Assembly: GCA_029861625.1 (NCBI GenBank)
Contig: JAOTZB010000008.1
Location: 1-33,004, forward strand
From: Acidimicrobiia bacterium
GTDB lineage: Bacteria > Actinomycetota > Acidimicrobiia > Acidimicrobiales > JAHEJN01
Length of the DNA stretch: 33,004 nucleotides
Direction: 5' to 3'
Shown here: one piece after another, positions 12,836 to 29,825 of the stretch
Numbering within the stretch: position 1 is the stretch's first letter
How the letters are laid out: every line of letters begins with the position of its first letter
Program-made: the position numbers and the translations under genes
Notes under the pieces: generated by a model
What the model was told of the DNA's origin: nothing
The model's database searches: none
What the model saw: the letters and a program-made list of their open reading frames with translations, nothing else

Positions 12836-13228
12836 CTACCTGTCCACGTGTAGGGAGTCACCGAGGGCGTCGAGAACGAGATCCCGATCGGCATCGGGCA
12901 CGTGGTCGCGCGGCACCGGCGAGAGCGCCTCGATGAACTGACAGCCTTCCACCGAGTGCAGCTCATGGTCGATGCCGCGGTTGATCACCGACACGTCGCC
13001 GGCCTTCAGCTCGCGTGTCTCGTCCCCCACCGTGAGGGTGACGTCGCCATCGAGGATGTACATGACCTGCTCGGTCGCGTCGTGGCTGTGGCGCGCCACG
13101 GTCGTGCCCGGCTCGTAGTCGACCCGGCACATCAGCACCTGCTCCCCTCCCGCGGCGTGCAGGGTCACGCCAGGAAACATCGGATGGGGCTCGACGCCAT
13201 TCCAGGTGCCGAACGGCGACCCCGTCAC
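12836..13228 (-). CDS. Small cupin-domain protein
   Basis: 130 residues forming one cupin barrel. Motif 1 is 'ARHSHDATEQVMYILDGDVT' with His47, His49 and Glu53; motif 2 is 'LKAGDVSVINRGIDHELHSV' with His88. All four metal ligands are therefore present and a divalent metal site is likely. The start is GTG at 13228, overlapping the TGA of the molybdopterin subunit gene (GTGA); no ATG gives a complete first strand. Single-domain cupins in catabolic operons act as isomerases, dioxygenase-like enzymes or ligand sensors. Context (molybdenum hydroxylase upstream, NIPSNAP and SDR downstream) suggests an enzyme of the same route, but no specific function can be given. Confidence 0.85.
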   Translation of the reverse strand: MTGSPFGTWNGVEPHPMFPGVTLHAAGGEQVLMCRVDYEPGTTVARHSHDATEQVMYILDGDVTLTVGDETRELKAGDVSVINRGIDHELHSVEGCQFIEALSPVPRDHVPDADRDLVLDALGDSLHVDR

Positions 13229-14331
13229 GAGTCGGAGGTCCAGCTGATCCCGCTGGCCACACTGTTCACCGAGAGCTCCTCGTCGAACACGATGTGCTTG
13301 CCTTCACGGCGGGGCTGGCCGCCGCCTGCAGCTTTGGCATCAAGCGCCCGAAGCACCCGTTCAGGCGTGATCGGCAACTCGGTCACCCACACGCCGACGG
13401 CGTCATGCACCGCCGCCGCGATGGCCGGCGGCTGGCTGTTGTTGGCCATCTCGCCGATGCCCTTCGCGCCGTAGGGACCGGTGGCCGACGGGTTCTCGAT
13501 GATGATCGTCTCGATCTGGGGCAGATCCTCCATCCCGGGGACGAAGTAGGAGCCGAAGTGAGAACCGCGGTGATCGGGCGAGGGGTAGTACGGGTAGCTG
13601 TCCTCGAGCACGCCGAGGCCGAGCCCCATCACTGCTCCACCCTCGATCTGGCCCTCCACCAGCGTCGGGTTGATCGCCTTCCCGACGTCGTAGGCCTGGA
13701 CCATGCGGACAATGCGCACGATCCCGGTCTCGTCGTCGACCTCGACCTCGGCTGCACAGGCCGCATAGGAGATGGCGGCGTGGGGTGGACTGTCGACCTC
13801 GCCGGTCTCGGAGTTGGTGATTGCCGCGAACGCGTTGAGCTCGGCGCCAGTGCCGGTGATGAGCTGACCGTGGCCATAGGTGGCGGCTGCGGCGACGTCG
13901 GCGACATCCATCGTCAGGCTGGGCGCTCCCCGCGCCTGGACCTCACCATCGATGATGTCGAGGTCCTGCGGTCCGATCTCCATCTCGGCGCTGGCGATCT
14001 CGAGCAGCTTCGTCTTCACCTCCTCGGCCGCCTTCAGCACAGCGTTGCCGGCAATCACGGTCGCGCGCGATGCGAACGTGCCGGTGCACACGGGCGAGGA
14101 GTCGGTGTTCGAGTTGTCGAAAGTGACCCAGTCGTAGGGGACGCCGATCGACTCGGCGACGATCTGGGACTGGATGGTCTTGGCTCCGTTGCCGATGTCG
14201 GACGTGCCCGAGAACACGTCGATCCGCCCGTCGGGCTTGACCTTGATCCAGGCTTGGGAGGGGTCGCCGTTCTGGTTCATTCCCGACGGGTACTCGATGG
14301 CGGCGAGGCCGCGTCCGGTGTGTTTCGCCAT
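13225..14331 (-). CDS. Molybdenum hydroxylase, molybdopterin subunit, C-terminal half (medium subunit)
   Basis: 368 residues equal to the second half of a xanthine dehydrogenase-family large subunit. 'GRGLAAIEYPSGM' opens the domain, followed by 'GTSDIGNGAKTIQSQIVAES' (42-61), 'CTGTFASRATVIAGNAVLKA' (82-101) and 'QAYDVGKAINPTLVEGQIEG' (212-231). The catalytic base is Glu294 in 'GPYGAKGIGEMANNS'. In most family members this is fused to the N-terminal half; here a stop and restart (TGATG at 14329-14333) separates two complete genes at the natural domain boundary. The same split is known for nicotinate dehydrogenase (NdhL/NdhM) of Eubacterium barkeri. Start ATG 14331 was chosen for the overlap and domain start; a longer frame to 14379 is rejected. 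The enzyme would hydroxylate a heterocycle or aldehyde using water. Confidence 0.92.
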   Translation of the reverse strand: MAKHTGRGLAAIEYPSGMNQNGDPSQAWIKVKPDGRIDVFSGTSDIGNGAKTIQSQIVAESIGVPYDWVTFDNSNTDSSPVCTGTFASRATVIAGNAVLKAAEEVKTKLLEIASAEMEIGPQDLDIIDGEVQARGAPSLTMDVADVAAAATYGHGQLITGTGAELNAFAAITNSETGEVDSPPHAAISYAACAAEVEVDDETGIVRIVRMVQAYDVGKAINPTLVEGQIEGGAVMGLGLGVLEDSYPYYPSPDHRGSHFGSYFVPGMEDLPQIETIIIENPSATGPYGAKGIGEMANNSQPPAIAAAVHDAVGVWVTELPITPERVLRALDAKAAGGGQPRREGKHIVFDEELSVNSVASGISWTSDS

Positions 14332-15698
14332 CAGTGGCCCTCCGTACTGATCTGGTCGACGAGATGATCGGGCAACCACTCGCCTTCACGCGGCTCTCGA
14401 GTGGCCGCCGCGTAGGCCGGAGCAAGGTCGTGTCCGGTGGCACCGGCGATCGACTGGAGCACGTCGACCGTGCTCGGGTCGGTGTAGCTGATCCGGTTGG
14501 GTGAGGTGTCGTGAATGCGGTTGGCGTTCTTCAGACGGAACTCGTACGGGTCGAGGCCCAGTTCGTCGACGATGCGACTCATGTGGGTCTCGACTGCGAA
14601 CGACACCGACGTCACGCCGAACCCGCGCATGGCCGTGGTCGGTACACGGTTCGTGAACACCACGTAGCCGTCGAAATGCAGGTGCGGGATCGTGTACGCC
14701 CCGGTGTGGTGGAAGCTGTGCTTGGTCAGGCCATACGGCGAGAACCGGGCGTAGGCGCCCGAGTCGTGAAGCGTCAGCATCTTGCGGCCGAGGATCCAGC
14801 CGTCGGAGGTCACCGCGTCGATGATCTCCATGTGCCAAGGCGCACGGGTTGAACTGGCCAGGAACTCCTCCTCGCGGGTCCAGCGCCACTTCACCGGCCG
14901 GCCGGCCTTCATGGCGGCCAGCGCGGTGATCGTCTCGCTGGCAGTGTCGACCTTGCCACCGAAGCCACCACCGACGGTGCCACCGACGATCTTCAGCTTG
15001 TTCAACGGCACCTGGAGATGAGCCGAGATCACGCCCAGGGAGAAGTACATCGCCTGGGTGCACGAGTGGATCGTGAGCCGGCCGTCGGATTCGGGCACCA
15101 CCATGGATACCTGTGTCTCCATCGGTACGTGCTCGATGGCGGCGGGCCGGTAGACGCCCTGGATGATGTGGTCGGCGTCCTCGAACGCCTTCTGAATGTC
15201 GCCCTTGCGGATCTGGCGACGATCCATCTCGTCCTCGAAGTGTGGGTACCAGTTTCCCCACCGATGGACCACCGCTGCATCGGAGTCGAACGCTTCGCGG
15301 ACGTCCCAGAGCGTCGGGCGCTCCTCGTACTCGATCTCGATGGCGGCGACGCCGGCGGTGGCCGCCTCGAGATCCTCGGCCGCGACCAGCGCGATCGGCT
15401 GGCCCATGTAGCGGACCTCGTCCTTGGCGAGCAGGGGCTCGTCGGCGGGGATGCCGAGGCCGGAGAGGTGGCCGTACTCGAGTTGGGGTACGTCGGTGTG
15501 GGTGACAACGGCATGAACGCCCGGGACGGCCTCGGCGCGACTGGTATCGAGCTTGGTAATGGCCGCGTGATGCACTGGCGAGCGCAGGGCCTTGGCCCAG
15601 AGCATCCCGTGGACGCGGAAGTCGTCGACGTAGGTGGTCTGTCCGGTCACGTGCCCCACGCCGTCGTAGCGGGGGAGTCGGGCGCCGACGGCCTTCAT
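14331..15698 (-). CDS. Molybdenum hydroxylase, molybdopterin subunit, N-terminal half (large subunit)
   Basis: 455 residues. The N-terminal a/b hammerhead domain is seen as 'RLPRYDGVGHVTGQTTYVDD' (7-26), 'GMLWAKALRSPVHHAAI' and 'VRYMGQPIALVAAEDLEAA'. The first molybdopterin domain follows with 'KIVGGTVGGGFGGKVDTASE', 'RPVKWRWTREEEF' and 'PTTAMRGFGVTSVSFAVETH'. The protein ends shortly after the 'YEFRLKNAN' region, exactly where the partner gene resumes, so the two products together make one canonical large subunit of about 820 residues. Start ATG 15698 overlaps the stop of the 2Fe-2S gene (ATGA). Active enzyme needs molybdenum cofactor insertion factors, which are not encoded in this window. 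Substrate class (purine, nicotinate-like or aldehyde) cannot be fixed from sequence alone. Confidence 0.92.
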   Translation of the reverse strand: MKAVGARLPRYDGVGHVTGQTTYVDDFRVHGMLWAKALRSPVHHAAITKLDTSRAEAVPGVHAVVTHTDVPQLEYGHLSGLGIPADEPLLAKDEVRYMGQPIALVAAEDLEAATAGVAAIEIEYEERPTLWDVREAFDSDAAVVHRWGNWYPHFEDEMDRRQIRKGDIQKAFEDADHIIQGVYRPAAIEHVPMETQVSMVVPESDGRLTIHSCTQAMYFSLGVISAHLQVPLNKLKIVGGTVGGGFGGKVDTASETITALAAMKAGRPVKWRWTREEEFLASSTRAPWHMEIIDAVTSDGWILGRKMLTLHDSGAYARFSPYGLTKHSFHHTGAYTIPHLHFDGYVVFTNRVPTTAMRGFGVTSVSFAVETHMSRIVDELGLDPYEFRLKNANRIHDTSPNRISYTDPSTVDVLQSIAGATGHDLAPAYAAATREPREGEWLPDHLVDQISTEGH

Positions 15699-16207
15699 TT
15701 CGCGTCTCCGGTCATGACGGTGGTGTACCCGCCCTCGGCCGTTGTGGTCAGGTCGAAGTTCCCACCGCGGGCGGCGGCGACGGCCTCGATGATCTTCACG
15801 TAACCAGTGCAGCGGCAGACGTGCCCACGGAGTGCCTCTTGGATCTCCTTGCGATCGTCGCTGCCACCGCTGTCGAGATAGTGGGTCGCGGCGACCACCA
15901 TCCCCGGGGTGCAGAACCCACACTGGGCGGCGTAATAGTGGACGAACGCCTGCTGGACCGGTGAAAGGTCGTCGGCGGCACCGAGGCCCTCGACGGTCGT
16001 GACCTCGGCTCCGTCGATGGCGGCGACAGCTGTGAGACACGAACGACGTGGCGCGCCATCGACCAGGACGGTGCATGCGCCGCATCCGCCGGCCTCGCAC
16101 CCGGCCTTGGGTCCGACGACGTCGAGCTCGTCGCGCAGGACCCGCAGGAGCGACGTCAGACCCGGGCTGCGAACCTCCAGCTCGTCGCCGTTGACCGTGA
16201 TGTTCAT
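15695..16207 (-). CDS. Molybdenum hydroxylase, 2Fe-2S subunit
   Basis: 170 residues with both clusters of the family. The plant-type ferredoxin domain has Cys37, Cys42, Cys45 and Cys57 ('CEAGGCGACTVLVDG' and following RRSC). The all-helical domain has Cys96 and Cys99 ('AAQCGFCTPGMVV') plus Cys131 and Cys133 ('HVCRCTGYVKII'). It passes electrons from the molybdenum centre to FAD. The ATG at 16207 is preceded by GAGAGGAG on the reverse strand and begins with the usual 'MNITVNGDELEV' strand; a longer frame upstream runs through the FAD gene and is rejected. It lies 28 bases after the FAD gene and overlaps the large-subunit gene by 4. The length is normal for the family. Confidence 0.95.
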   Translation of the reverse strand: MNITVNGDELEVRSPGLTSLLRVLRDELDVVGPKAGCEAGGCGACTVLVDGAPRRSCLTAVAAIDGAEVTTVEGLGAADDLSPVQQAFVHYYAAQCGFCTPGMVVAATHYLDSGGSDDRKEIQEALRGHVCRCTGYVKIIEAVAAARGGNFDLTTTAEGGYTTVMTGDAK

Positions 16208-16235
16208 CGTTGACTCCTCTCTCTCGAGTCCCGGC

Positions 16236-17015
16236 TCAGCCGAGCTGCTCGAGCACCCGACGCACGAGGACGGGAAGAATTCGTTCGCGGTACCACGCCG
16301 ACGACACCGCGTCGTCGACGAGTCTGACATCACCGAGGGCGGCGGTTCCCGCCGCGTCAGGATCGGATGCTTCGGCCTCGGCCGAGGGCAGCCGGACGGC
16401 GGTGGGCGCGGCACCAGTGGCAGCCAGCTGGATACTTCCGTCGGCCAATCGCGCACCGGAGACCGCTAGTGGGGTGGGGTGGTGGGTGTGGGGCCGGTCG
16501 AGGCTCTCGAACGCACCGGCCTGGGGCTGCTCGTAGGTGACGTCGAGCACGAGGCGGTTGTCGCGGTCGGCAAGGAAGTCGGCGACGGGCTCGATCCGCT
16601 CGCCACCGGCGCCCGTGGATCGAACCGAGGCACCGAGGGCGACGAAGGCACCTTGGAGATCGCCGGTCGGGTGCTCGGGCGGGGCCACCGCGCACAGGTT
16701 GCCGCCCACCGTCGCCTGATCCCGGACCTCCGAATCGCCCAGGTTGGCCGCGCACGGCCCGAGTGGGGCGTCGAGCTCGCTCAACGCGGACACCGACGTC
16801 ATGGCGCCGATCGTCACGGTGGTCCCACTCTGGTCAACGCCTTCGAGGCCGGCGTCGGCCAGTATGAGCGCCTTGTTCGGTTGCACGACGCCGTGGGTGA
16901 CGAGCGGCACCATGATCGTGCCACCGCCGATGATCGTGACGTCGCCGCCCTCACCGAATGCCGCCGCCGCGGCCTCAGGTGAATCCGGCGTGAGCACCTC
17001 GGTCGCCTCTGCCAT
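16236..17015 (-). CDS. Molybdenum hydroxylase, FAD-binding subunit
   Basis: 259 residues of the CoxM/xanthine dehydrogenase FAD family. The FAD pyrophosphate site is 'VTIIGGGTIMVPLVTHGVVQ' (26-45) and the second FAD motif is 'DSEVRDQATVGGNLCAVAPP' (94-113). A C-terminal CO-dehydrogenase flavoprotein domain begins around 165. The protein is a little shorter than the usual 280-300 residues. The ATG at 17015 has AGGGGAG about nine bases upstream; an in-frame ATG at 17045 lacks such a site and would overlap the leader hairpin region. This is the first gene of the reverse operon (17015 to 11219). Its leader of about 185 bases contains a 10-bp inverted repeat and one copy of a 61-bp element also found before the SMP-30 gene, implying common control. 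Confidence 0.93.
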   Translation of the reverse strand: MAEATEVLTPDSPEAAAAAFGEGGDVTIIGGGTIMVPLVTHGVVQPNKALILADAGLEGVDQSGTTVTIGAMTSVSALSELDAPLGPCAANLGDSEVRDQATVGGNLCAVAPPEHPTGDLQGAFVALGASVRSTGAGGERIEPVADFLADRDNRLVLDVTYEQPQAGAFESLDRPHTHHPTPLAVSGARLADGSIQLAATGAAPTAVRLPSAEAEASDPDAAGTAALGDVRLVDDAVSSAWYRERILPVLVRRVLEQLG

Positions 17016-17090: not shown

Positions 17091-17130
17091 TTCCACGGAT
17101 CGACAAGATTCAAGCGCGCCAGCTCGTGCA

Positions 17131-17191
17131 TCGACAGGCACGAGCGGAGCAACTGACCCCCTCCGATGGAGGTGGCTCCAAAGAACTAGTC
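17131..17191 (-). promoter_or_regulatory. 61-bp shared cis-element, copy 1 (upstream of molybdenum hydroxylase operon)
   Basis: Read on the reverse strand, this block matches 19615-19675 (read forward) at 53 of 61 positions without gaps. Shared cores are GACTAGTTCTTT at the 5' end, AGTTGCTCCGCT in the middle and GTGCCTGTCGA at the 3' end. It begins 9 bases past the response-regulator stop and ends 115 bases before the FAD-subunit ATG. As RNA, positions 13-17 can pair with 42-46, enclosing a CCTCC/GGAGG hairpin; the outer pairing survives in copy 2 with an A-U to G-U change and the loss of one end pair. Copy 1 alone also has an 8-bp hairpin (GCTCGTGC/GCACGAGC, 17122-17145). Both copies point toward the operon they precede. 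Mechanism (operator or structured leader) is open. Confidence 0.6.
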
Positions 17192-17200
17192 GGAACCGGG

Positions 17201-17839
17201 TCAGGCGCTGGGTGGCGCTCCGGTCCCGCGGCTGTACCTGTCGTTGAGAATCAACGCCACCAGCTCGGTGCGTGAATTCACGCCGAACTTCATCAAGATA
17301 TTGCTCACGTGATTCTTGACCGTGTACACGCTGAGGTAGAGGCGCTCGGCGATCTCGGCATTCGCGAGTCCGGTGGCCAGCAGATCGGCGACTTCTCGCT
17401 CGCGGTCGGTGAGGCCGCGCAGGATGTCGCGGTCATTGGTGATGAGGCGCGTCACCGAGGGGTCGAGGGCGGACTGCCCGACTGCGGTCATCCGGATCGA
17501 GGCTGCCAGGTCATCTCCTGAGACGCTCTTGAGCTGAACGCTCGTTGCACCCGCCTCGAGCGCCGACCGCACAAGGGCAGCTTCGGTGAAGCTGGTGAGC
17601 GCCAGCACGCGGACATCGGGCGCGAGCCGCGAGAGCTCACCGATCGCCTCCACGCCGCCGCCTCCGGGCATGATGAGGTCCATCACGACGACGTCGGGCT
17701 GCAGCTCCAGCGCCTGTTCCACCGCGACCTCGCCGCTGTGTGCGGTACCCACCACCTCGATGTCCTCGTAGCCGTTGAGACAGGCGGTAACTCCCTCACG
17801 GAGAAGGTCGTGGTCGTCGACGACCATGACGCGGATCAT
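17201..17839 (-). CDS. NarL/FixJ-type response regulator
   Basis: 212 residues. The receiver domain (2-118) has Asp8/Asp9, phospho-acceptor Asp54 in 'VVVMDLIMPGGGG', Thr82 and Lys104. A LuxR-type helix-turn-helix occupies about 142-205: 'GLTDREREVADLLATGLANA' and recognition region 'YTVKNHVSNILMKFGVNSRT'. It starts inside the stop codon of the histidine kinase gene (ATGA), so the two are co-translated and are almost certainly partners. Its stop lies 9 bases from the first copy of the 61-bp repeated element, and the gene pair is enclosed by both copies. Control of the flanking molybdenum hydroxylase and SMP-30 operons is therefore the natural hypothesis. Start ATG 17839 fits the family N-terminus. 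Confidence 0.93.
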   Translation of the reverse strand: MIRVMVVDDHDLLREGVTACLNGYEDIEVVGTAHSGEVAVEQALELQPDVVVMDLIMPGGGGVEAIGELSRLAPDVRVLALTSFTEAALVRSALEAGATSVQLKSVSGDDLAASIRMTAVGQSALDPSVTRLITNDRDILRGLTDREREVADLLATGLANAEIAERLYLSVYTVKNHVSNILMKFGVNSRTELVALILNDRYSRGTGAPPSA

Positions 17840-19512
17840 ACGGGGAGCCCGAGAATCGCGGGGACGATGAGGGAGATCTCCGTGCCGGCGCCGGGCCGGC
17901 TCATGACCTCGAGCTCGGCGCCGATCGATTCGGCCCGCTCAGCCATGATTCGCAGGCCGAGGTGATCAGATGGCTGCTCTGGGTCATAGCCGACGCCGTT
18001 GTCGGACACGCACATCCGGAGGTCGTCATCTCTCATCGAGAGCCTGATCGCCACCTCGGTCGCCTGCGCATGGCGTGCGATGTTGTTGAGCGATTCCTGG
18101 ACGATCCGGTAGATGGCGACCTTCACGGTCGGGACCAGCTCGATCGGGTCGCCCAGCTCGATCAGGCACTCGGCATTCCTTCGGCTCGAGAACGCTGAAA
18201 CGAGCTGGCGAACGAGATCATGCAGCGGTGTCTCCTCGATCACCGACGGCCGGAGCTCGAGCAGCAGAGTCCGCATCTCGGAGAGCGCACCGTCGGCGAG
18301 CGTATGCAGGCGGTCGACCTGCACACGTTGCTGCTCATCCAGATCGGGGGAGCGGGCCAACGTCTCCGCGACCAGTGTCGCCGTCCACAGGGTCTGGCTG
18401 ACGGAGTCGTGGAGGTCGTTGGCGAGTCGTTGTCGCTCTTCGACGGCGGCGAGTGACCTGGTCGTGAGCAGGGAGCGGCTGTTCGAGATGGCCGAGGCGG
18501 CCTGGTCGGCGATAGTTGCCAGGCGGTCGACGTTCTCGATCGTGAAGTCGAGGGCCGGGAGCGGCTCGACAACGAGGCAACCCAGCCTCAGGTCGGCCGT
18601 TTCGAGCGGGAGCACGACGACCCCGTTGGCCGAGATCGGGTCGCGCTCGGATCCGTCGACCGATCCGCCGTCGAGGTCGCCGAGGAGGTCGGGAACTCGC
18701 GTGTGCGGTTCGGGCCATTCCTCGTGGGGGCGGCCGGGGTATCGCTGCCCGGCCAACTCCAGGACACCTTCGTTGTCATAGAGCGCGACGTAGCTGCGAT
18801 GGTGTGGGCACAGCCGCTCGACCCCTCGGAGCACCTGTTCGATGACGTCGTCGAGTTGCAGGGAGCGAGCAATGGCTGCGGCGCTGTCCCTCAGCGCTTC
18901 GGCCTGGGCGAGCTGGATCCGCTCCTGCTCCTCGAGGCGCACCCGTTCCTCGACTTCGCGTTGGAGGGTCTCGTTGGCCCGTGAGAGCTCCGACGTGCGG
19001 TCCCGTACCCTTTCGTCGAGCTCCTCGAGGGTTCGTTTGAGCTCGGATTCCGCCTCGATCCGCTCGGAGATGTCGACGAAGGTCCCCAACGTGCCGATGA
19101 CGTTGCCGTCGCGGTCCTTCAGTGGCACCTTGTTCGTCTCGACCCACATCACCCTGCCCTGGGCGGTGGTGACCTGCTCGCGGAGTCCGAGGATCGGTTC
19201 GCCGGTCTCGACGACCATGCGATCGTGGTCCACGTACCAGCCCGTACCGCCCCGTCCGACGTCGGCTGGTCCCCACGCGCAGTCGGCGTCGGTCTTGCCG
19301 ATCAAGTCGGCAGGGGTCGTCGCGCCTGCGTACTCGGCCAGCTTCTCGTTGCAGCCGAGGTACACCGAGTTGACGTCCTTCCACCAGATCGCGTGATGGA
19401 CGCTGTTCATCACCAGGTCGAAGATGTGCCGGCTGGCCTGGAGGGCTTCGTCGCCCTCCAGCTCGCCCTTCAGTAGCGCGGCATAGAGCGAGAGCGCCCC
19501 GGCCTCACCCAT
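17836..19512 (-). CDS. Soluble PAS-GAF sensor histidine kinase (HisKA_3)
   Basis: 558 residues with no membrane segment, so a cytoplasmic sensor. Domains in order: PAS at about 28-150 ('HHAIWWKDVNSVYLGCNEKL' and the PAC end 'DRDGNVIGTLGTFVDISERI'), coiled coil 150-205, GAF at about 208-345, HisKA_3 helix with 'EERQRLANDLHDSVSQTLWT' (phospho-acceptor His368), and a HATPase domain with N-box 'VQESLNNIARHA' (471-482) and 'VSDNGVGYD' (502-510). The PAS cavity has Trp and Cys residues and could bind a small molecule; the ligand is unknown but could be an intermediate of the surrounding pathway. It precedes and overlaps its regulator gene. The ATG at 19512 is the best start seen; upstream in-frame sequence does not look coding. 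Confidence 0.92.
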   Translation of the reverse strand: MGEAGALSLYAALLKGELEGDEALQASRHIFDLVMNSVHHAIWWKDVNSVYLGCNEKLAEYAGATTPADLIGKTDADCAWGPADVGRGGTGWYVDHDRMVVETGEPILGLREQVTTAQGRVMWVETNKVPLKDRDGNVIGTLGTFVDISERIEAESELKRTLEELDERVRDRTSELSRANETLQREVEERVRLEEQERIQLAQAEALRDSAAAIARSLQLDDVIEQVLRGVERLCPHHRSYVALYDNEGVLELAGQRYPGRPHEEWPEPHTRVPDLLGDLDGGSVDGSERDPISANGVVVLPLETADLRLGCLVVEPLPALDFTIENVDRLATIADQAASAISNSRSLLTTRSLAAVEERQRLANDLHDSVSQTLWTATLVAETLARSPDLDEQQRVQVDRLHTLADGALSEMRTLLLELRPSVIEETPLHDLVRQLVSAFSSRRNAECLIELGDPIELVPTVKVAIYRIVQESLNNIARHAQATEVAIRLSMRDDDLRMCVSDNGVGYDPEQPSDHLGLRIMAERAESIGAELEVMSRPGAGTEISLIVPAILGLPV

Positions 19513-19580
19513 TGGGGCCCATCTCGAAGCGCTGACGAGCGGGAAGCATGGGCCCGATCATAGTGAGCGGCCCGGCCGCG

Positions 19581-19606
19581 CCTGTGGCCGACCGCGATCG
19601 CACAGG
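19581..19606. promoter_or_regulatory. Hexamer inverted repeat in the divergent kinase/SMP-30 region
   Basis: CCTGTG (19581-19586) and CACAGG (19601-19606) are perfect inverted repeats with 14 bases between them, centre spacing 20 bases. They lie between the kinase start (19512, reverse) and the 61-bp element copy at 19615. The layout is operator-like, but a 6-base repeat may arise by chance. Confidence 0.3.
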
Positions 19607-19614
19607 TTGTTCGG

Positions 19615-19675
19615 GACTAGTTCTTTTGGGCCGCCTCCAACGGGGAGGGTGAGTTGCTCCGCTGGTGCCTGTCGA
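19615..19675 (+). promoter_or_regulatory. 61-bp shared cis-element, copy 2 (upstream of SMP-30 operon)
   Basis: This copy is in inverted orientation relative to the one at 17131-17191, with 8 substitutions and no gap. It lies in the 324-base region between the divergent kinase gene and the SMP-30 gene, 161 bases before the SMP-30 ATG. The substitutions are spread over all three codon positions in the one reading frame open in both copies, so conservation is not due to protein coding. Similarity stops abruptly at GTGCCTGTCGA; the downstream leader (19676-19836) shows no match to copy 1 and no other obvious structure. The 8-bp hairpin next to copy 1 is not formed here. Together with copy 1 it marks these two operons as a likely regulon of the enclosed two-component system. 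Confidence 0.6.
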
Positions 19676-19836
19676 CGGACTCGTGGCTGACCTACCTTCT
19701 GGATCGGTTCGTTGCTTCCGCTCGTTCGGTCGCACGCCACTACGGAGGGCCGGTAGAGGGGGCACGCGATGGTCATCACGCCATGCTCGCGCGACTGTCT
19801 GGCTCTCGCGTCTGGACCCACATCCAGGAGGATCCC

Positions 19837-20760
19837 ATGGGAGCAGTAGCAGCCACGTCCGACGCCATCTGGGGGCTCGTCGACGAGAGCGAAGAGCTCG
19901 AGAAGGTCGGCACCGGCTTCACCTTCACCGAAGGGCCGATCTGGCACCCGACCGAGCATCACCTGCTCTTCTCCGATATGCCCGGCGACGTGCGCCGCAA
20001 GTACACGCCTGGGCGCGGCGTGGAAGAGGTCATGAGTCCGAGCAACAAGGGCAACGGCATGACCTACGACGCCGATCTCAACCTCATCGTCTGCGAGCAT
20101 GTGACGTCGTCGCTCGTGATGGAGCGACCCGATGGCACCCGCGAGACGTTGGCCTCGCACTTCGAGGGCAAGGAGCTCAACAGCCCGAACGACGTCATCG
20201 TCGCGCCCGGCGGGGCCATCTACTTCTCCGATCCCTGGTACGGCCGCATGCCCGTCTTCGGGCTCGAGCGTGATCGTGACCTCGGTTGGCAGGGCGTCTT
20301 CCGGTTGCCGCCGGGAGGCGGCGAGATCGAGCTGGTCGTGGCGCGCGACGAGTTCGAGATGCCGAACGGACTGTGCTTCTCGCCCGACCACAGCCTGATG
20401 TACATCAACGACACGCCGAACGCCTTGATCCGTGTCTATGACTACGACGCCTCCGACGGTTCGATCAACAACGGCCGCCTCTTCGCCGACGGCATCGGGA
20501 GCGGTGTCATCGAGGAGGGCATCCCCGACGGGATGAAGTGTGACGAGCGGGGCAACATCTGGGTGACCGGGCCCGGAGGCGTGTGGGTGATCGACCCGGC
20601 CGGCGAACACATCGGCACCGTGCAGGTCCCGGAGAACGTCGGAAACCTCACGTGGGGTGGCGAGGACTGGCACACGCTGTTCATGCCGAGCAGCTCGTCG
20701 CTGTACACGCTCCGAACGACCGTCGGCCCGCACCGCGAGCCGTACATGGGCCAATTCTGA
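19837..20760 (+). CDS. SMP-30/gluconolactonase/LRE-family lactonase
   Basis: 307 residues, six-bladed beta-propeller family. Likely metal ligands are Glu32 ('FTFTEGPIWHP'), Asn177 ('FEMPNGLCFSPD') and Asp231 ('IPDGMKCDERGNIWVT'); Asn118 in 'LNSPNDVIVAPGGAIYFSDP' is the usual substrate contact. These enzymes hydrolyse sugar or other lactones to the open acid using a divalent metal. AGGAGG at 19826-19831 sits 5 bases before ATG 19837 and fixes the start; an upstream in-frame ATG at 19654 would translate the leader and is rejected. It is followed after 17 bases by the isochorismatase-fold gene. A lactonase next to dehydrogenases and FAH enzymes suits an oxidative sugar-acid type route; the lactone is unknown. 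Confidence 0.9.
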   Translation: MGAVAATSDAIWGLVDESEELEKVGTGFTFTEGPIWHPTEHHLLFSDMPGDVRRKYTPGRGVEEVMSPSNKGNGMTYDADLNLIVCEHVTSSLVMERPDGTRETLASHFEGKELNSPNDVIVAPGGAIYFSDPWYGRMPVFGLERDRDLGWQGVFRLPPGGGEIELVVARDEFEMPNGLCFSPDHSLMYINDTPNALIRVYDYDASDGSINNGRLFADGIGSGVIEEGIPDGMKCDERGNIWVTGPGGVWVIDPAGEHIGTVQVPENVGNLTWGGEDWHTLFMPSSSSLYTLRTTVGPHREPYMGQF

Positions 20761-20777
20761 GGACCGAGGAGGACCTG

Positions 20778-21404
20778 ATGGCAGATCTCGAGCTGAACAC
20801 CGACATCACGTTGGATGCGAGCCGTTGCGCGCTCATCATCCAGGATCTCCAGAACGACGTGATCACCGAGGGCGGGGCGTTCGCCGAGTCGGGTGCGCCC
20901 GCCCACGCCACGAAGCAGAACGTCGTGGCCAACGCTCGCCGACTGGCCGCAGCGTGCCGAGACAAGGGGGTGCCGGTCATCCATGTCTGGTACGTGGTTG
21001 CCGAGGGAGCGCCGGGTCTCAAGGTGAACGCCCCGCTGTTCGAAGGCGTCGCCGGCGGCGCGTTGGTGAAGGGCACGTGGGGAGCGGCGCCGGTCGACGG
21101 GCTCGAGCCGCAGCCCGGCGACTTCGTCGTCGAGAAGATGCGCATGAGTGCATGGGAGGGCACTGAGCTCGAGCACCTCCTGAAGGGCACCGGCCGCGAC
21201 ACCGTCATCGTGACGGGTGCGTGGACGAACATGTCGATCGAGCACACGGCTCGCACCGGCGCCGACAAGGGCTACTTCATGGTCGTGCCCGAGGATGCGT
21301 GTTCGACCGTCGACGACGACTGGCACGCGGCGTCGATCAACTTCGCACTGCAGAACGTGTGCACACCAACCTCGGTCGATGCCGCGATCGCGGCGCTCGG
21401 GTAG
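20778..21404 (+). CDS. Isochorismatase-fold (cysteine hydrolase family) protein lacking the nucleophilic cysteine
   Basis: 208 residues with the isochorismatase-like Rossmann-type fold. The catalytic Asp23 ('LIIQDLQNDVIT') and Lys120 ('FVVEKMRMSAWEGT') are present. The nucleophile motif GxxTxxC appears as 'VTGAWTNMSIEHTAR': Gly147 and Thr150 are conserved, but the cysteine position is Ser153. Amidase members of the family, such as nicotinamidase and N-carbamoylsarcosine amidase, need that cysteine, whereas true isochorismatases work without it. A vinyl-ether or other non-amidase hydrolysis, or a binding role, is therefore more likely than amide cleavage. GAGGAGG precedes ATG 20778 by 5 bases. 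It is co-transcribed with the SMP-30 gene and converges on the RraA-like gene 12 bases away. Confidence 0.85.
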   Translation: MADLELNTDITLDASRCALIIQDLQNDVITEGGAFAESGAPAHATKQNVVANARRLAAACRDKGVPVIHVWYVVAEGAPGLKVNAPLFEGVAGGALVKGTWGAAPVDGLEPQPGDFVVEKMRMSAWEGTELEHLLKGTGRDTVIVTGAWTNMSIEHTARTGADKGYFMVVPEDACSTVDDDWHAASINFALQNVCTPTSVDAAIAALG

Positions 21405-21416
21405 GCCCGTACCCGT

Positions 21417-22082
21417 TCAGAGAACCCGGTATTTCCGGTACGCCTCGGAGGGCAACATGCCGCTTTCGACAGCAAGACGAAACGACTGCTCGTCGCTGCT
21501 CTTGCGGTACGCGTGCGCCACGGCCGCGCCCGCCAGGTCGGCCGGCACGACAACCACTCCGTCCCCGTCGGCGATCACCATGTCTCCCGGCGAGATCGGG
21601 ACATCGTCGATGTGGGCGGCGACCCCGTGACCGACGATCTCCAGCCGCCCGTTGATGTCGGTCGGGACCGTGCCCCGGGCGAAGACCGGGAATTCCAGCC
21701 GATCGACCTGGCGTACGTCTCGCACCATCCCGTCGGTCACGATGCCTGCCGCACCTCGCGCCCTGCTCGCCGTCGAGAGCAGCTCACCCCAGACTGCGGT
21801 CGCGACGTCGCGGCCCGTGGGGATCACGACGATGTCCCCTGGCCCGACGGCGTCGAGCGCGGCCAGAAGACCCGTGTACGGCACCTCGGCAGGGGCGTCG
21901 ACGGTATCCACGGCCAGCGGCAGGGCCCGGCCGGCGACGGCGACGCCACTGCCGGCCGCACCCACCGGGCCGATGTCCCAGCCGAGACATTGATGACGGT
22001 GGCCCAAGGCGTCGAGCGCGTCGCTGAGGAGCGAGCTCCCGAGCTCAGCAGCCCGATCCAGCTGTTCTTGGTCGGTCTCCAT
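21417..22082 (-). CDS. RraA-like aldolase/decarboxylase family protein
   Basis: 221 residues of the RraA / HMG-aldolase family. The core signature is 'AVWGELLSTASRARGAAGIV' (96-115) followed by 'TDGMVRDVRQV', giving Asp117, Arg121 and Asp122, the residues that bind the metal and oxo-acid in class II pyruvate aldolases. The C-terminal 'VPISPGDMVIADGDGVVVVP' is also typical. Enzymatic members cleave 4-hydroxy-4-methyl-2-oxoglutarate or 4-carboxy-4-hydroxy-2-oxoadipate to pyruvate and can decarboxylate oxaloacetate; RNase E inhibitors of the family usually lack parts of this site. I chose ATG 22082; a longer frame overlaps the divergent permease gene. Only 32 bases separate its start from the permease start on the other strand, so the two may share control. 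Aldolase function is favoured by context. Confidence 0.88.
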   Translation of the reverse strand: METDQEQLDRAAELGSSLLSDALDALGHRHQCLGWDIGPVGAAGSGVAVAGRALPLAVDTVDAPAEVPYTGLLAALDAVGPGDIVVIPTGRDVATAVWGELLSTASRARGAAGIVTDGMVRDVRQVDRLEFPVFARGTVPTDINGRLEIVGHGVAAHIDDVPISPGDMVIADGDGVVVVPADLAGAAVAHAYRKSSDEQSFRLAVESGMLPSEAYRKYRVL

Positions 22083-22114
22083 GGTCCCGAATCTACGTTC
22101 CTGGGGCGGACTCG

Positions 22115-23203
22115 ATGACGATCGGCGACGCCGGCCCGGTCGAGCATCCCACGGAGCCGTTTCTGCAACAGCGCGCGTGGGTGCGCCACATCCCGGCGGT
22201 GGCCATCGGTGCGCCAGTGGCGTTCGCGGTCCTGTGGATCTTGTTCTTCGCCCGAGGTACATCGGCCGGTGCCGCTGTCTCCGAGCCCGGCGAGTTCTTC
22301 GTCGCATTCTTGAATGGCGTGACCCTCGCCGGGCTGCTCTTCGTCGTGGCGTCGGGCTTCACGCTGATCTTCGGTCTGATGCGCACGGTGAACATGGCCC
22401 ACGGATCGCTCTTCCTCCTGGCCGCTTACATCGGCATCGACCTGCAGAAGCAGATGGTCGGAAAGACCCGCAACATCAACGCCGACGACGTCTCGATACT
22501 GCAGTGGGTTGTTCCGATGCTCGTGGGCGCCGCAGTTGTCGCCGTCATCGGTGTCGTGATGCAGCAGGTCTTCCTGCGCTGGAACCAGGGTGAGGAGCTC
22601 CGCCAGGCGCTGATCACGCTGGCGATCTCGGTGATCCTCGCCGACCAGATGCTCCGAGAGTTCGGCGGTCTGGCGCAGACCATGGTGTGGCCCGGCAGGG
22701 TCACCCACTTCATCGACATCTTCGGCCAACGGTACGCGACCAGCCGTCTGTTCATGCTCGGCGTCGCGTTACTTGTCGGCGCGTTGCTCTGGCTCTGGCT
22801 CAACAAGACGCGCATGGGGATGGTGATCCGGGCCGGCGTCGACGACCAGGACATGGTCCGCGCCCTCGGCATCAACATCACCCTGGTCTTCGCGGCTACG
22901 TTCTTCGTCGGCGCCTTCCTCGCCGGGATGGGTGGCGCAATGGGCGCGTCGTTCGCCGGCGCGTCGACCGGTGCCGACGGTGCGTGGCTCCTCAACTCGC
23001 TCGTGGTCGTGATCATCGGGGGGCTCGGGTCCGTCAAGGGCGCTCTCGCAGGCTCGCTGCTCTACGGGATGGTGCTCGCCCTCTCGCCCGTCTACCTGCC
23101 CAGCGAGTACGCCTTCTACTCGATCATCTTCACCTTCGTGCTCCTCGCCCTGGTGCTGGCCGTCCGTCCGTACGGGCTCTTCGGCAAGGTGGAGTCAGCA
23201 TGA
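22115..23203 (+). CDS. livH: HAAT-family ABC transporter permease (LivH-type)
   Basis: 362 residues with about nine hydrophobic membrane segments. The early 'LMRTVNMAHGSLFLLAAYIG' region and the cytoplasmic coupling loop 'IRAGVDDQDMVRALGINITL' identify LivH-type permeases of the branched-chain amino acid/amide family. The C-terminal 'VVIIGGLGSVKGALAGSLLY' is also diagnostic. It has a longer than usual N-terminus (about 30 residues before the first helix) and an inserted segment around 'DLQKQMVGKTRNINADDVSI'. It pairs with the LivM-type gene, which starts inside its stop codon (ATGA). This is the first gene of a ten-gene forward operon. The operon lacks amino-acid metabolism genes, so the cargo is probably a catabolic substrate such as an organic acid or amide. 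Confidence 0.92.
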   Translation: MTIGDAGPVEHPTEPFLQQRAWVRHIPAVAIGAPVAFAVLWILFFARGTSAGAAVSEPGEFFVAFLNGVTLAGLLFVVASGFTLIFGLMRTVNMAHGSLFLLAAYIGIDLQKQMVGKTRNINADDVSILQWVVPMLVGAAVVAVIGVVMQQVFLRWNQGEELRQALITLAISVILADQMLREFGGLAQTMVWPGRVTHFIDIFGQRYATSRLFMLGVALLVGALLWLWLNKTRMGMVIRAGVDDQDMVRALGINITLVFAATFFVGAFLAGMGGAMGASFAGASTGADGAWLLNSLVVVIIGGLGSVKGALAGSLLYGMVLALSPVYLPSEYAFYSIIFTFVLLALVLAVRPYGLFGKVESA

Positions 23204-24246
23204 CCGGCCGGCCGTCGACGGGCACCATGGTCATCTCGGCGGTGGTCGCGCTGCTGGTGCTACTGCCGGCCTTTGGCTCCGACTTCTTCATCGACTTCGT
23301 CATGACCCGGACGATGATGCTCGGGCTGGCTGCGTCGACCATCGTGTTCCTCTCGGCCTACGGCGGTATGGTCTCGCTGGCGCAGTGGCTGATATTCGGC
23401 GTGTCGGGGTTCATGATCGGGAATGCCGTGGCTGAAGCGGGCCATGGCCTGAAGCTCGGGTGGAACCCGTGGGTCGCGGTCATCTTCGCTCTCGGAATCG
23501 CCACTGCGGTCGCCTTCGTTCTCGGAGCCCTCTCGGCGCGGACGATCGGCATCTACTACCTGATGTTGACCCTCACCTACGCGGTGATCGGCTTCCTCTT
23601 CTTCGGACAGGTAACGACGTTCTCCGGATTCGGCGGGGTCACCGGCCTCGATCCCCCCGGCTTCTTCCTCGATCACCCGAAGCGGCTGTACTACGCAGGC
23701 GTGGTCCTGTCGGTGATCGCGTACGTCACCTTCCGAGCCGTCGCGAGGACGTCGTTCGGCATAGCTCTCCAAGGGATCCGCGACGACCCCGTACGGATGT
23801 CGTCGCTGGGCTTCAACGTGCCGATGCACCGGATGTTGGCCTTCACGCTGGCCGGCTTCGTCGCGGCCATCGCGGGGGTGCTCAACGTATGGTGGAACGG
23901 GCAGATCGACCCCACGTCGATCTCCATCGGGCCCACTCTCGACCTGTTGATCATCGCGGTGATCGGCGGTATCGCCCACCTCGAGGGCGCATGGCTGGGC
24001 GCGTTCGTGTTCGTCGCGGCCAACAACTACCTCCGCGATCTCCCGCTGGTCGACAACATCGGCATCACCGAGGCCCGCTTCAACACCGTCATCGGCGCTC
24101 TCGTTCTCTTGATCATGGTGCTCTCGCCCGACGGGCTGATGGGGATCATCGAGAAGGTGCGCGCTGCGGGCCGACGCGTCCTCGGTGGCCCGACCGGCCC
24201 GACCACCGCCGCGCCCGAACCGCGGCTCCGCCGTACGAGCTCATGA
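23200..24246 (+). CDS. livM: HAAT-family ABC transporter permease (LivM-type)
   Basis: 348 residues, about nine to ten membrane segments. LivM-type marks are 'YGGMVSLAQWLIFGVSGFMI' near residue 49, 'TIGIYYLMLTLTYAVIGFLF', and the coupling loop 'TSFGIALQGIRDDPVRMSSL' before 'GFNVPMHRMLAF'. The C-terminal 'IAVIGGIAHLEGAWLGAFVF' segment matches the family. A cytoplasmic tail rich in Gly, Pro and Arg follows the last helix. ATG 23200 overlaps the LivH stop, so the two half-permeases are translationally coupled. The solute-binding protein gene starts 34 bases after its stop. Start and family are secure; the cargo is not. Confidence 0.92.
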   Translation: MTGRPSTGTMVISAVVALLVLLPAFGSDFFIDFVMTRTMMLGLAASTIVFLSAYGGMVSLAQWLIFGVSGFMIGNAVAEAGHGLKLGWNPWVAVIFALGIATAVAFVLGALSARTIGIYYLMLTLTYAVIGFLFFGQVTTFSGFGGVTGLDPPGFFLDHPKRLYYAGVVLSVIAYVTFRAVARTSFGIALQGIRDDPVRMSSLGFNVPMHRMLAFTLAGFVAAIAGVLNVWWNGQIDPTSISIGPTLDLLIIAVIGGIAHLEGAWLGAFVFVAANNYLRDLPLVDNIGITEARFNTVIGALVLLIMVLSPDGLMGIIEKVRAAGRRVLGGPTGPTTAAPEPRLRRTSS

Positions 24247-24280
24247 CAACGAAGACCATGACAATGGAGGGAACACCAAG

Positions 24281-25867
24281 ATGAGCAAGAGAACCGACAG
24301 GAAGAGGTGGCTGAGCATTCTCGGCATCCTCCTCGGCTTCGCGTTGATCGCGGCAGCCTGTGGGAGCGATGACGACGGCGACGACGAGGTCGTCGCTGAG
24401 GAGGAGGCTCCCGCCGAAGAGGAAGCTCCCGCCGAGGAAGAAGCTCCCGCCGAGGAAGAAGCTCCCGCCGAAGAGGAAGCTCCCGCCGAGGAAGAAGCTC
24501 CCGCCGAAGAGGAAGCTCCCCCCGAAGAGGAAACAGCCGGTGACAACGAAGTCCGGCTCGGAATCATGGCCGAGTGTGAAGGCGCCTTCGGTGGCTTCCA
24601 CGAAGACATCACCGCTGGAGCCGTTCTTGGCATGATCAACGGTGCCGGCGCAACGTCGAACTCGACCACCACGGCTCTCGACGGGTTCTCCGGCGCTTCG
24701 GTGGCCGGTACGCCGATCAACCTGGTGGGTATCGGCTGCGGTGATGACACCCCGGACCGGGCCATCCAGGAGATTCGCACGCTCGTCGAACAAGACGGTG
24801 CCAATGTCATCATCGGCCCACTCTCGGGTGACGAGGGCATCGCCATCGCCAACTACGCCAAGGACCATCCGGAGGTCACCTTCCTTGACGGCAGCTCGGG
24901 CGCCCAGGACACGACCCTCTCGGTCCAGGCACCGAACTACTTCCGTTGGCATGCCGACGGCGCTCAGTGGAATGCCGGTATCGGCGACATCCTCCACAAC
25001 ACCGCCGGTTGGGACACGGCCGCGGTGATCGCCGACGACTACGGCTTCGGCTGGACCTCGGCTGCAGGTTTCACCGCCGAATTCTGCGCCGTCGGTGGAG
25101 ACGTGGTGCAGCAGGTGTTCCCGCCCCTCGGAACCACCGACTACTCGTCATTCGTGGCCCAGTTGCCGAATCCCGACGAGGTCGACGGTTACTTCTGGGT
25201 CATCGGCGGAACCGGTACCAACGCCTCGCTCGAAGCGTTCCTGAACGCCAAGGGTGACCTCACCGGAGACCAGCACGCCGGCAATCTGTTCTTCAGCCCC
25301 GCGCTCGCGGCGGCACTGGGAACCGACATCGCCGGTGCCTATGTCGGTGGCTTCGCCAATCTCCCCGGTGACATCTCGACACCGGAGATCGACGCCTATC
25401 TCGCCTCCGCCGATGCGGCGTGGGAGACGCTGGCCGGAGGCCTGAGCGGCAACGAGCCGGCGGAGCCCTCGCTGGCTGCCGGGTTCGGCTTCATGTACGC
25501 CTACTACAGCGCCTCGGCCGCGTTCACCGAGGCTCTGGCGGCGGTCGACGGTGACCTGTCCGACAATCACGCCGCGTTGCGCGCTGAGATGTCGACCATG
25601 ACATGGGAAGGCCCGTTCGGCGACATCAGCCTCGACGAGAATCGTCAGGCGATCGCCGACACCTCCGTGCAGCAACTCGTGCTGGACGAGAACGAAGAGG
25701 TCATCTCCAAGACGGTCGTCATCGTCCCGGCGGTCGACCAGACCTTCGGTGGCACGTTCTCGGAGGAAACGGATCCGCCTGAGCGCGACAACGTGTCGTG
25801 CGAGGAGCGCGATCTGCCGTGGGTCGGCAACGCGATTCCCGTCGTCGACGGCGTTCCGCAGAACTGA
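24281..25867 (+). CDS. Solute-binding lipoprotein of the HAAT ABC transporter
   Basis: 528 residues. Lipoprotein signal: basic N-terminus (MSKRTDRKRW), hydrophobic core, lipobox IAAAC with Cys27. Residues 28-39 are Asp-rich, then 40-84 are a Glu-Glu-Glu-Ala-Pro-Ala tandem repeat forming a stiff acidic tether. The ligand-binding domain (about 90-528) is a type I periplasmic-binding fold: 'VRLGIMAECEGAFGGFHEDI' at its start, 'GANVIIGPLSGDEGIAIANY' and 'WDTAAVIADDYGFGWTSAAG' are family segments. Conserved cysteine pairs may form disulfides. GGAGGG upstream supports ATG 24281. It is longer than typical LivK-type proteins (about 370-400), largely because of the tether and a C-terminal extension. 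It delivers ligand to the LivH/LivM permease; the ligand class cannot be read with confidence. Confidence 0.92.
   Translation: MSKRTDRKRWLSILGILLGFALIAAACGSDDDGDDEVVAEEEAPAEEEAPAEEEAPAEEEAPAEEEAPAEEEAPAEEEAPPEEETAGDNEVRLGIMAECEGAFGGFHEDITAGAVLGMINGAGATSNSTTTALDGFSGASVAGTPINLVGIGCGDDTPDRAIQEIRTLVEQDGANVIIGPLSGDEGIAIANYAKDHPEVTFLDGSSGAQDTTLSVQAPNYFRWHADGAQWNAGIGDILHNTAGWDTAAVIADDYGFGWTSAAGFTAEFCAVGGDVVQQVFPPLGTTDYSSFVAQLPNPDEVDGYFWVIGGTGTNASLEAFLNAKGDLTGDQHAGNLFFSPALAAALGTDIAGAYVGGFANLPGDISTPEIDAYLASADAAWETLAGGLSGNEPAEPSLAAGFGFMYAYYSASAAFTEALAAVDGDLSDNHAALRAEMSTMTWEGPFGDISLDENRQAIADTSVQQLVLDENEEVISKTVVIVPAVDQTFGGTFSEETDPPERDNVSCEERDLPWVGNAIPVVDGVPQN
24398..24532 (+). repeat. In-frame 18-bp tandem repeat encoding an acidic tether
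   Basis: Seven consecutive 18-base units encode EEEAPA (the seventh EEEAPP), followed by a final EEE. Units differ mainly by GAG/GAA wobble changes and alternate in pattern, which suggests unit duplication rather than selection of independent codons. It lies between the lipid anchor and the binding domain. Repeat number may vary between strains by slippage. Confidence 0.9.
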
Positions 25868-25902
25868 GACGGCCTCGGGAACCAAGAGGCATCGGAGCCA
25901 CC

Positions 25903-26664
25903 GTGACCATTGATCCGCCAAGCGACCCCCTCCTGCGATTGCGGTCGGTCACGGTGGCGTTCGGTGGCCTGGTCGCCCTGGCCGGCGTCGATCTCGACGT
26001 CGTCCAGGGCGAGCGGCTCGCGGTCCTGGGTCCGAATGGAGCGGGGAAGACGACGTTGTTCAATGCGGTCGCCGGGGATATTCGCCCGACCGGAGGGACC
26101 GTCGAGATCCGGGGGGTCGACTGCACATTGCTGCCGTCGCGGCGACGCCCGACACTCGGGCTGGCCCGGACGTACCAGAAGACCCGGCTCTTCGCGGGTC
26201 TCTCCGTCGAGGACAACCTGTACCTCGCGCAGTGTGGCAAGGAGGGGTCGCACTTCAAGCTCTGGCGTCACGGCCGCGAGGCGTTCTGGCGCGAGCGAGC
26301 TCGCGTGGCGGCGGGCCGGGTATGGCTGTCCGACCAGTTCGACGTTTTGGTCGGAGATCTCTCCCATGGACAGCAGCGCCAGCTCGAGGTTGGGATGGCG
26401 GTGGTGACCCAACCCGACGTAATGATGCTCGACGAGCCGGCCTCGGGGCTGTCGCGCGGGGAGCGAGAACGTCTCACCGAGCTCCTCACCGACCTGGCGG
26501 CCGAGGAGACCCTGTTGCTCATCGAGCACGACATGGATGTGGCGTTGAAAGTCGCCGAGCGCGTGGTCGTCATGGCCGATGGCGAGGTGGTCGCCTCTGG
26601 TACGCCCGACGAGATTCGTGGCGACCCGCTCGTCCAAGAGATCTACCTCGGACGCCAGCGATGA
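25903..26664 (+). CDS. livG: HAAT ABC transporter ATP-binding protein (LivG-type)
   Basis: 253 residues. Walker A is GPNGAGKT (43-50), the signature motif is 'DLSHGQQRQLEVGMA' (152-166; LSHGQ instead of LSGGQ, common in LivG proteins), Walker B is 'VMMLDEPASGLS' (173-184) and the switch histidine is His209. The C-terminus 'GTPDEIRGDPLVQEIYLG' is the LivG-type tail. It hydrolyses ATP together with the LivF-type subunit to drive import. The start is GTG 25903, chosen because the reading frame upstream is unrelated and GGAG lies just before it. The gene ends inside the LivF start (ATGA). A weak 5-bp inverted repeat (GCCTC/GAGGC, 25872-25890) precedes it and might reduce expression relative to the binding protein. 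Confidence 0.93.
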   Translation: MTIDPPSDPLLRLRSVTVAFGGLVALAGVDLDVVQGERLAVLGPNGAGKTTLFNAVAGDIRPTGGTVEIRGVDCTLLPSRRRPTLGLARTYQKTRLFAGLSVEDNLYLAQCGKEGSHFKLWRHGREAFWRERARVAAGRVWLSDQFDVLVGDLSHGQQRQLEVGMAVVTQPDVMMLDEPASGLSRGERERLTELLTDLAAEETLLLIEHDMDVALKVAERVVVMADGEVVASGTPDEIRGDPLVQEIYLGRQR

Positions 26665-27371
26665 TCGATCCGCTGCTCGAGGTCGTCGGACTGCGCGCCG
26701 GGTACGGCACCTCCCAGGTGCTCGACGGGGTCGACTTCTCCATGGGTCGCGAATCTGTCGCCATCATCGGGCGCAACGGTGTCGGGAAGACCACCCTGTG
26801 CAAGACGCTCATGGGTCTCATCCGCCCCTCTGGTGGCGACATCACTTTCAAGGGTGACCCCCTCGCCAAGAGCACTCCCGAGAGGATCGCCAGGAAGGGC
26901 ATGGCCTATGTGCCGCAAGGGCGTCGCCTGTTCCCCTCGCTGACCGTCGACGAGCACCTCGCCATGCTGGCCAAGGGAACGCGCGGAAGACGCTGGACGC
27001 CCGAGGCGGTCTATGACCTGTTTCCCCGCCTCGGCGAGCGCCGCAAGAACGGTGGGGCCGAGCTGTCGGGCGGCGAGCAGCAGATGCTGTCGGTGGGTCG
27101 AGCCCTCTTGCTCAACGCGGAGTTGCTCGTCATGGACGAACCGTCAGAGGGGCTTGCCCCGAAGATCGTCGACACCTTGATCGATGTCGTCCAGCAGTTG
27201 ATCGGCGAGGGCCACGCAGTACTGGTCGTCGAGCAGAACCTGCATGCGGCCACGCACATGGCCCACCGTCAGCTGGTGATGGTGTCTGGTCGGATCGAAG
27301 CCGAGTCCACTGCGGAAGAGCTCCGAGCGAGTCCCGAGCTGCAGCGCCAGTATCTCGGAGTCGAGGCGTGA
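26661..27371 (+). CDS. livF: HAAT ABC transporter ATP-binding protein (LivF-type)
   Basis: 236 residues. Walker A GRNGVGKT (37-44), Q-loop region 'MAYVPQGRRLFPSLTVDEHL' (81-100), signature LSGGEQ (135-140), Walker B 'LLVMDEPSEGLAP' (155-167) and the switch residue in 'VLVVEQNLHAA'. The VPQGR..FP..T and EPSEGLAP motifs are typical of LivF. It starts in the LivG stop and its own stop is overlapped by the GTG start of the oxidoreductase gene, so transport and metabolism genes form one translation chain. This linkage is the best evidence that the downstream enzymes act on the imported compound. Confidence 0.93.
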   Translation: MIDPLLEVVGLRAGYGTSQVLDGVDFSMGRESVAIIGRNGVGKTTLCKTLMGLIRPSGGDITFKGDPLAKSTPERIARKGMAYVPQGRRLFPSLTVDEHLAMLAKGTRGRRWTPEAVYDLFPRLGERRKNGGAELSGGEQQMLSVGRALLLNAELLVMDEPSEGLAPKIVDTLIDVVQQLIGEGHAVLVVEQNLHAATHMAHRQLVMVSGRIEAESTAEELRASPELQRQYLGVEA

Positions 27372-28555: not shown

Positions 28556-28564
28556 GAGACCGAC

Positions 28565-29809: not shown

Positions 29810-29825
29810 CCGAGAGGAGATGGAG

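Follow-up and report, generated by a model that had tools for sequence, protein, structure and literature searches.

A repeated 61-bp element as the probable promoter operator of a NarL-type two-component system and its neighboring catabolic operons in an Acidimicrobiia bacterium

In the window, the 33,004-nucleotide stretch of DNA analyzed here, a 61-bp element occurs twice, in inverted orientation around the genes of a two-component system. We consider it very likely (a probability of roughly 0.85) that this element is the dedicated operator of the enclosed system, supplying the promoter boxes through which its NarL-type regulator would activate the flanking catabolic operons. The original prediction had described the repeat and the direction of each copy, and both descriptions held. 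The reverse complement of 17131-17191 is identical to 19615-19675 at 53 of 61 positions with no gap; copy A points toward the molybdenum hydroxylase genes (ATG at about 17015, reverse strand) and copy B toward the SMP-30 gene (ATG at about 19838, forward strand). The best other ungapped match to the 61-mer in the whole window is below 33 of 61, and the 23-nt core, present twice in the window, did not turn up in any of 100 shuffles. The flanks of the two copies are dissimilar (11 of 30 positions identical upstream and 18 of 61 downstream). The following features, with gene functions assigned by Pfam, make up the locus.

17131-17191, reverse strand: copy A of the 61-bp element, preceding the molybdenum hydroxylase operon
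19615-19675, forward strand: copy B of the 61-bp element, preceding the SMP-30 gene, in the divergent region upstream of the kinase
17201-17839, reverse strand: NarL/LuxR-type response regulator (Response_reg and GerE), candidate binder of the element
17836-19512, reverse strand: sensor kinase (PAS, GAF, HisKA_3 and HATPase_c), with no transmembrane domain among its Pfam hits
13225-17015, reverse strand: molybdenum hydroxylase genes, conserved downstream of the element in the genus of G261 and in G446, G404 and G405
16236-17015, reverse strand: molybdenum hydroxylase FAD subunit
15695-16456, reverse strand: reading frame of the 2Fe-2S subunit
14331-16100 and 13225-14379, reverse strand: two reading frames of the molybdenum subunit
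19838-21404, forward strand: SMP-30/gluconolactonase gene (ATG with GGAGG), then an isochorismatase-type hydrolase gene
22115-31849, forward strand: urea/branched-chain-type ABC transporter operon, including a periplasmic binding protein (24539-25867), with Gfo/Idh/MocA, xylose-isomerase-like, UPF0261 and PEP_hydrolase genes

The regulator matches Response_reg (E 2e-22) and GerE (E 2e-18), the domain pair of the NarL/FixJ type. A second HisKA_3-type histidine kinase lies elsewhere in the window (2395-3651, forward strand), near a GH114 gene (460-1647) and a gene with a PKD domain (3762-4934). Within 13225-16100 (reverse strand), MoCoBD_1 and MoCoBD_2 are on separate reading frames, and the molybdenum subunit is split in the same way in relatives. 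At the end of the ABC operon (28565-31849, forward strand), the UPF0261 and PEP_hydrolase-like genes are 69-85% identical in G474 (69/85% in contig L119); these two proteins correspond to the two halves of a plant Tm-1-like protein (PMC5028733).

The element is kept in relatives. It was found in 14 genomes, including that of the window, from seven genera and four families of one order, and all 14 encode a close orthologue of the enclosed kinase and NarL-type regulator. Few genomes have the kinase: of 397 in the order, 9 pass the score used, several of them only distantly alike, and the orthologue set was widened by family-level searches beyond these nine. Behind the element in the 14 genomes stands either the molybdenum hydroxylase operon or the urea/branched-chain-type ABC operon. 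Conservation in front of orthologous operons, which the original prediction had named as a check on a regulatory role, was thus observed and favors regulation; the footprint persists across the four families, while the flanks do not. The element precedes the hydroxylase operon in G446, G404, G405, G400, G406, G398, G261 and G280 and the ABC operon in G018, G474, G503 and G487. G007 resembles the window in having the element on either side of the system, again inverted, with one copy before the ABC operon and the other before a reading frame with ThuA, GSDH, CBM6 and PKD domains. The ABC operons of relatives carry a copy, whereas that of the window has none directly upstream, since an RraA-like gene on the opposite strand (21417-22307, reverse) leaves little room, about 30 bp, ahead of the first permease gene. 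This RraA-like gene lies between the isochorismatase gene and the ABC operon.

Where the operon has moved, the element has moved with it. For example, the hydroxylase operon of G261 lies 6 kb from the system and its element (47 of 61 positions identical to copy A) moved along; in G398, the operon is about 2.7 kb from the regulator genes and still has the element; and in G280, the element is on another contig than the system, directly upstream of the FAD-subunit gene, at a site absent from those used to train our profile. Compared with the copies of relatives, copies A and B are identical at 41-48 of 61 positions to those of the hydroxylase class and at 28-39 of 61 to those of the ABC class, where mainly the core is kept. 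Upstream of the ABC operon, the genus of G261 has a second footprint, strongly diverged, from the TAGTTCT of the box onward and with the −10 in register. Separately, G261 has a short interspersed repeat-like sequence, inverted around GGAATTGGCAGCG...CGCTGCCAATTC, in several intergenic regions near the locus (L095:1-705; L089:5530-5590 and 13630-13690). A contig scan with the exact core gave six matches. One of these, JADWMG010000086.1, which seems to be identical to the G474 record, is a genuine orthologous locus. Of the other five, L083 (Aeromicrobium) lacks the system genes, and the remaining four were set aside on organism and sequence only.

More distant versions of the system were also found. 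In G444, G450 and G276, the regulator is 46-49% identical and the site is diverged and partly similar, at the intergenic positions L116:9383 (reverse strand; G450), L115:4092 (reverse strand; G444) and L091 about 8495-8515 (reverse strand; G276). The three sites share AACGCGTCAT, and that of G450 and G444 begins ACTAGTTCCAACGCGTCATG; they possibly represent a second operator subtype. It is suggestive that the site appears more diverged where the regulator is more diverged too. In G452, with a regulator 57% identical, neither the element nor the target operons were found nearby.

To describe the anatomy of the site, we aligned 14 copies on the core, without gaps. The information per column is 1.03 bits at register 1-27 and 0.62 bits at register 38-61, compared with about 0.18 bits in both flanks, and it rises to 0.46 bits at register 77-86. 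In all 14 copies, a −10-like hexamer T[A/T]NNNT begins at register 79 ± 1, against at most 2 of 14 at registers 95-220, and register 55-60 is CTGTYG or a looser relative, 18 nt upstream of the −10. The conserved non-coding site therefore keeps a fixed distance to a promoter, and the fixed −10 register together with the CTGTYG-like −35 indicates that the 61-mer consists of two successive boxes, here called upstream and second, and the −35 of a promoter of the sigma-70 type. In the two copies of the window, the parts are placed as follows.

17168-17190, reverse strand: upstream core box of copy A, ACTAGTTCTTTGGAGCCACCTCC, within the most informative columns (register 1-27)
17140-17154, reverse strand: second, promoter-proximal box of copy A (register 38-52), with weak same-strand resemblance to the core
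17132-17137, reverse strand: putative −35 of copy A, CTGTCG (register 55-60), 18 nt from the −10
17108-17113, reverse strand: putative −10 of copy A, TTGAAT (T[A/T]NNNT at register 79 ± 1)
19616-19638, forward strand: upstream core box of copy B, ACTAGTTCTTTTGGGCCGCCTCC, from informative columns and the comparison of the core with shuffles
19652-19666, forward strand: second, promoter-proximal box of copy B, from column information and weak core resemblance
19669-19674, forward strand: putative −35 of copy B, CTGTCG
19693-19698, forward strand: putative −10 of copy B, TACCTT

The two −10 hexamers are of the same type and differ in their letters, which is why a comparison of the two copies alone ends at the −35. 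The 61-bp extent given originally is thus that of a real repeat, but the promoter continues past it, with the −10 at 17108-17113 and 19693-19698 outside. From the −10 positions, we infer transcription starts at about 17101 (reverse strand) and 19705 (forward strand), which would give leaders of about 86 and 133 nt. As read from the aligned copies, the core box is mostly asymmetric apart from a AACTAGTT center in some of them. The second box resembles the core weakly on the same strand (combined z about 3.9, over rows that are non-independent) and not at all on the other strand.

These observations suggest how the system may work. The element would form the regulatory part of a sigma-70-type promoter whose −10 lies another 18 bp on, with the upstream box, ACTAGTTCTTTnGnGCCnCCTCC, at about −89 to −68 from the predicted start and the second box at about −53 to −39, just upstream of the −35. 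The PAS/GAF kinase would phosphorylate the NarL-type regulator encoded between the copies; as deduced from the sequence, the phosphorylated regulator would bind both boxes and would activate, rather than repress, the molybdenum hydroxylase genes on one side and the SMP-30 and isochorismatase genes on the other. The ABC-transporter operon would be a target of this activation in relatives. Autoregulation of the system through copy B, which is situated upstream of the divergently transcribed kinase gene, is a further possibility. Two boxes upstream of and abutting the −35, beside the gene of a NarL-type regulator, have the layout of an activator site. The phosphorylated regulator most likely acts as an activator, with repression as the less likely alternative.

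To assess co-occurrence with the system, a sequence-only profile was run over 44 genomes. It found 16 sites of at least 35.9 bits, one or two per genome, and every one of them is in the 14 genomes that have a close system. In the 30 relatives that lack such a system, 22 of them without the kinase, no site scored above 20.1 bits. Presence and absence of the element also contrast inside six genera. However, 13 of the 16 strong sites had built the profile, so only the absence elsewhere and the three sites kept out of the training (G280, G398 and G400, all of one genus) count as independent evidence. The pattern of sites in the 14 genomes with the system and none in the 22 without the kinase is also confounded by target loss. 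Every ABC operon of this type in the sampled order (binding protein at least 74% identical) occurs with the system; targets and system come and go together, and co-occurrence alone is consequently no proof that this regulator is the binder. The element could instead be the promoter and operator of these operons bound by a different transcription factor, for example one that responds to a pathway intermediate, with the two-component system merely linked. Binding by the enclosed regulator is a prediction, and the system and operons co-occur regardless, yet we regard such a factor as unlikely. A non-exhaustive look at the loci showed no other regulator gene at all of them, the site of a widespread regulator need not be missing from the 22 kinase-less relatives as the element is, and the diverged regulator of G444, G450 and G276 goes with a diverged site. 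The regulators of element-bearing genomes have most of the GerE recognition-helix region in common.

Three readings of the 61-mer had been offered originally, and only the operator/promoter module was strongly supported, by the phylogenetic footprint, the fixed distance to the −10 and the within-genus co-occurrence with the system. It is very improbable that both transcripts begin with a structured RNA leader, whether riboswitch-like or protein-binding. Hydroxylase-class copies do show a GGAGC/GCTCC pairing, and one relative copy (L119) folds better than shuffles, but over 13 copies the pairing is not above shuffles and compensatory changes are not in excess, folding energy is at the shuffled level in four of five copies, and there is no Rfam match. 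The predicted pairing of positions 13-17 with 42-46 is not conserved in relatives; neither that stem nor an alternative dyad pairs better than shuffled columns do. Moreover, the −10 lies downstream of the element, which places the element upstream of the putative start.

The remaining reading, terminal inverted repeats of a non-autonomous mobile element carrying the two-component genes, would account for the inverted arrangement in the window and again in G007, but it can be practically dismissed given one or two strong copies per genome, all promoter-bound, partnerless single copies flanking the system in G018, G474 and G487, distant copies that always precede the same operon, and a plasmid search that found no similar DNA. 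Nor is the element a scattered genomic repeat: in its own assembly (3.97 Mb, 489 contigs, about 90% complete), a blastn search with the 81-bp surround found these two copies only (copy A, E 7e-15), and the next-best matches, of 14-19 nt with E of at least 1.8, are at chance level.

The closest described parallel to the preferred reading, an operator of the enclosed regulator, is DevR/DosR of Mycobacterium tuberculosis, a NarL-subfamily response regulator. At least two close-packed boxes, bound cooperatively, are found in its target promoters, the proximal box being located at the −35; one intergenic region may serve divergent genes, and the regulator is autoregulated (PMC3029386). Both systems combine a NarL-type regulator with close-packed upstream boxes and a proximal box at the −35. 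However, the regulon here appears limited to one or two catabolic promoters, and the proximal box, to which binding is predicted, abuts the −35 with no clear overlap. The DevR box is presumably different in sequence from that of the element. For OsdR of Streptomyces coelicolor, a NarL-type regulator in Actinomycetota with a wide dormancy regulon, the operator, a 16-nt palindrome AGGGCCGATCGGCCCT, was likewise deduced from motif conservation upstream of regulator orthologues (PMC5069765). Compared by eye, that consensus is unlike ACTAGTTCTTTnGnGCCnCC. As to the target enzyme only, the four-gene nicotinate dehydrogenase NdhFSLM of Eubacterium barkeri (PMC10331938) has a similar subunit make-up, with FAD, 2Fe-2S and two separate molybdenum-binding subunits, although the hydroxylase of the window has a different gene neighborhood. 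In the open-access literature, we found no description of the locus or the box; an occurrence of ACTAGTTC in a response-regulator context (PMC6821963) is part of cloning primers (SpeI site). While this kind of switch is well known, the box, the content of the regulon and the lineage appear to be undescribed.

Tentatively, and with the odds somewhat against it, we propose that a hitherto undescribed lineage of NarL-family regulators recognizes two boxes, one extended, mostly asymmetric and 22 bp long and the other promoter-proximal, about 33 bp further downstream; that box and regulator co-diverged into subtypes (TTTnGnGCC vs. CAACGCGTCATG); and that a portable regulon combines an importer of the urea/branched-chain type with a split-subunit molybdenum hydroxylase and with sugar-lactone enzymes for one common substrate. 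With this finding, a previously anonymous catabolic island in a lineage without cultured members becomes a defined regulon for which operator, promoter and transcription start are predicted. The element can be used as a tag for genes that act on the same substrate. The genes connected in this way so far are those of the molybdenum hydroxylase and the ABC importer, together with G007 genes that have ThuA, glucose/sorbosone dehydrogenase and carbohydrate-binding domains.
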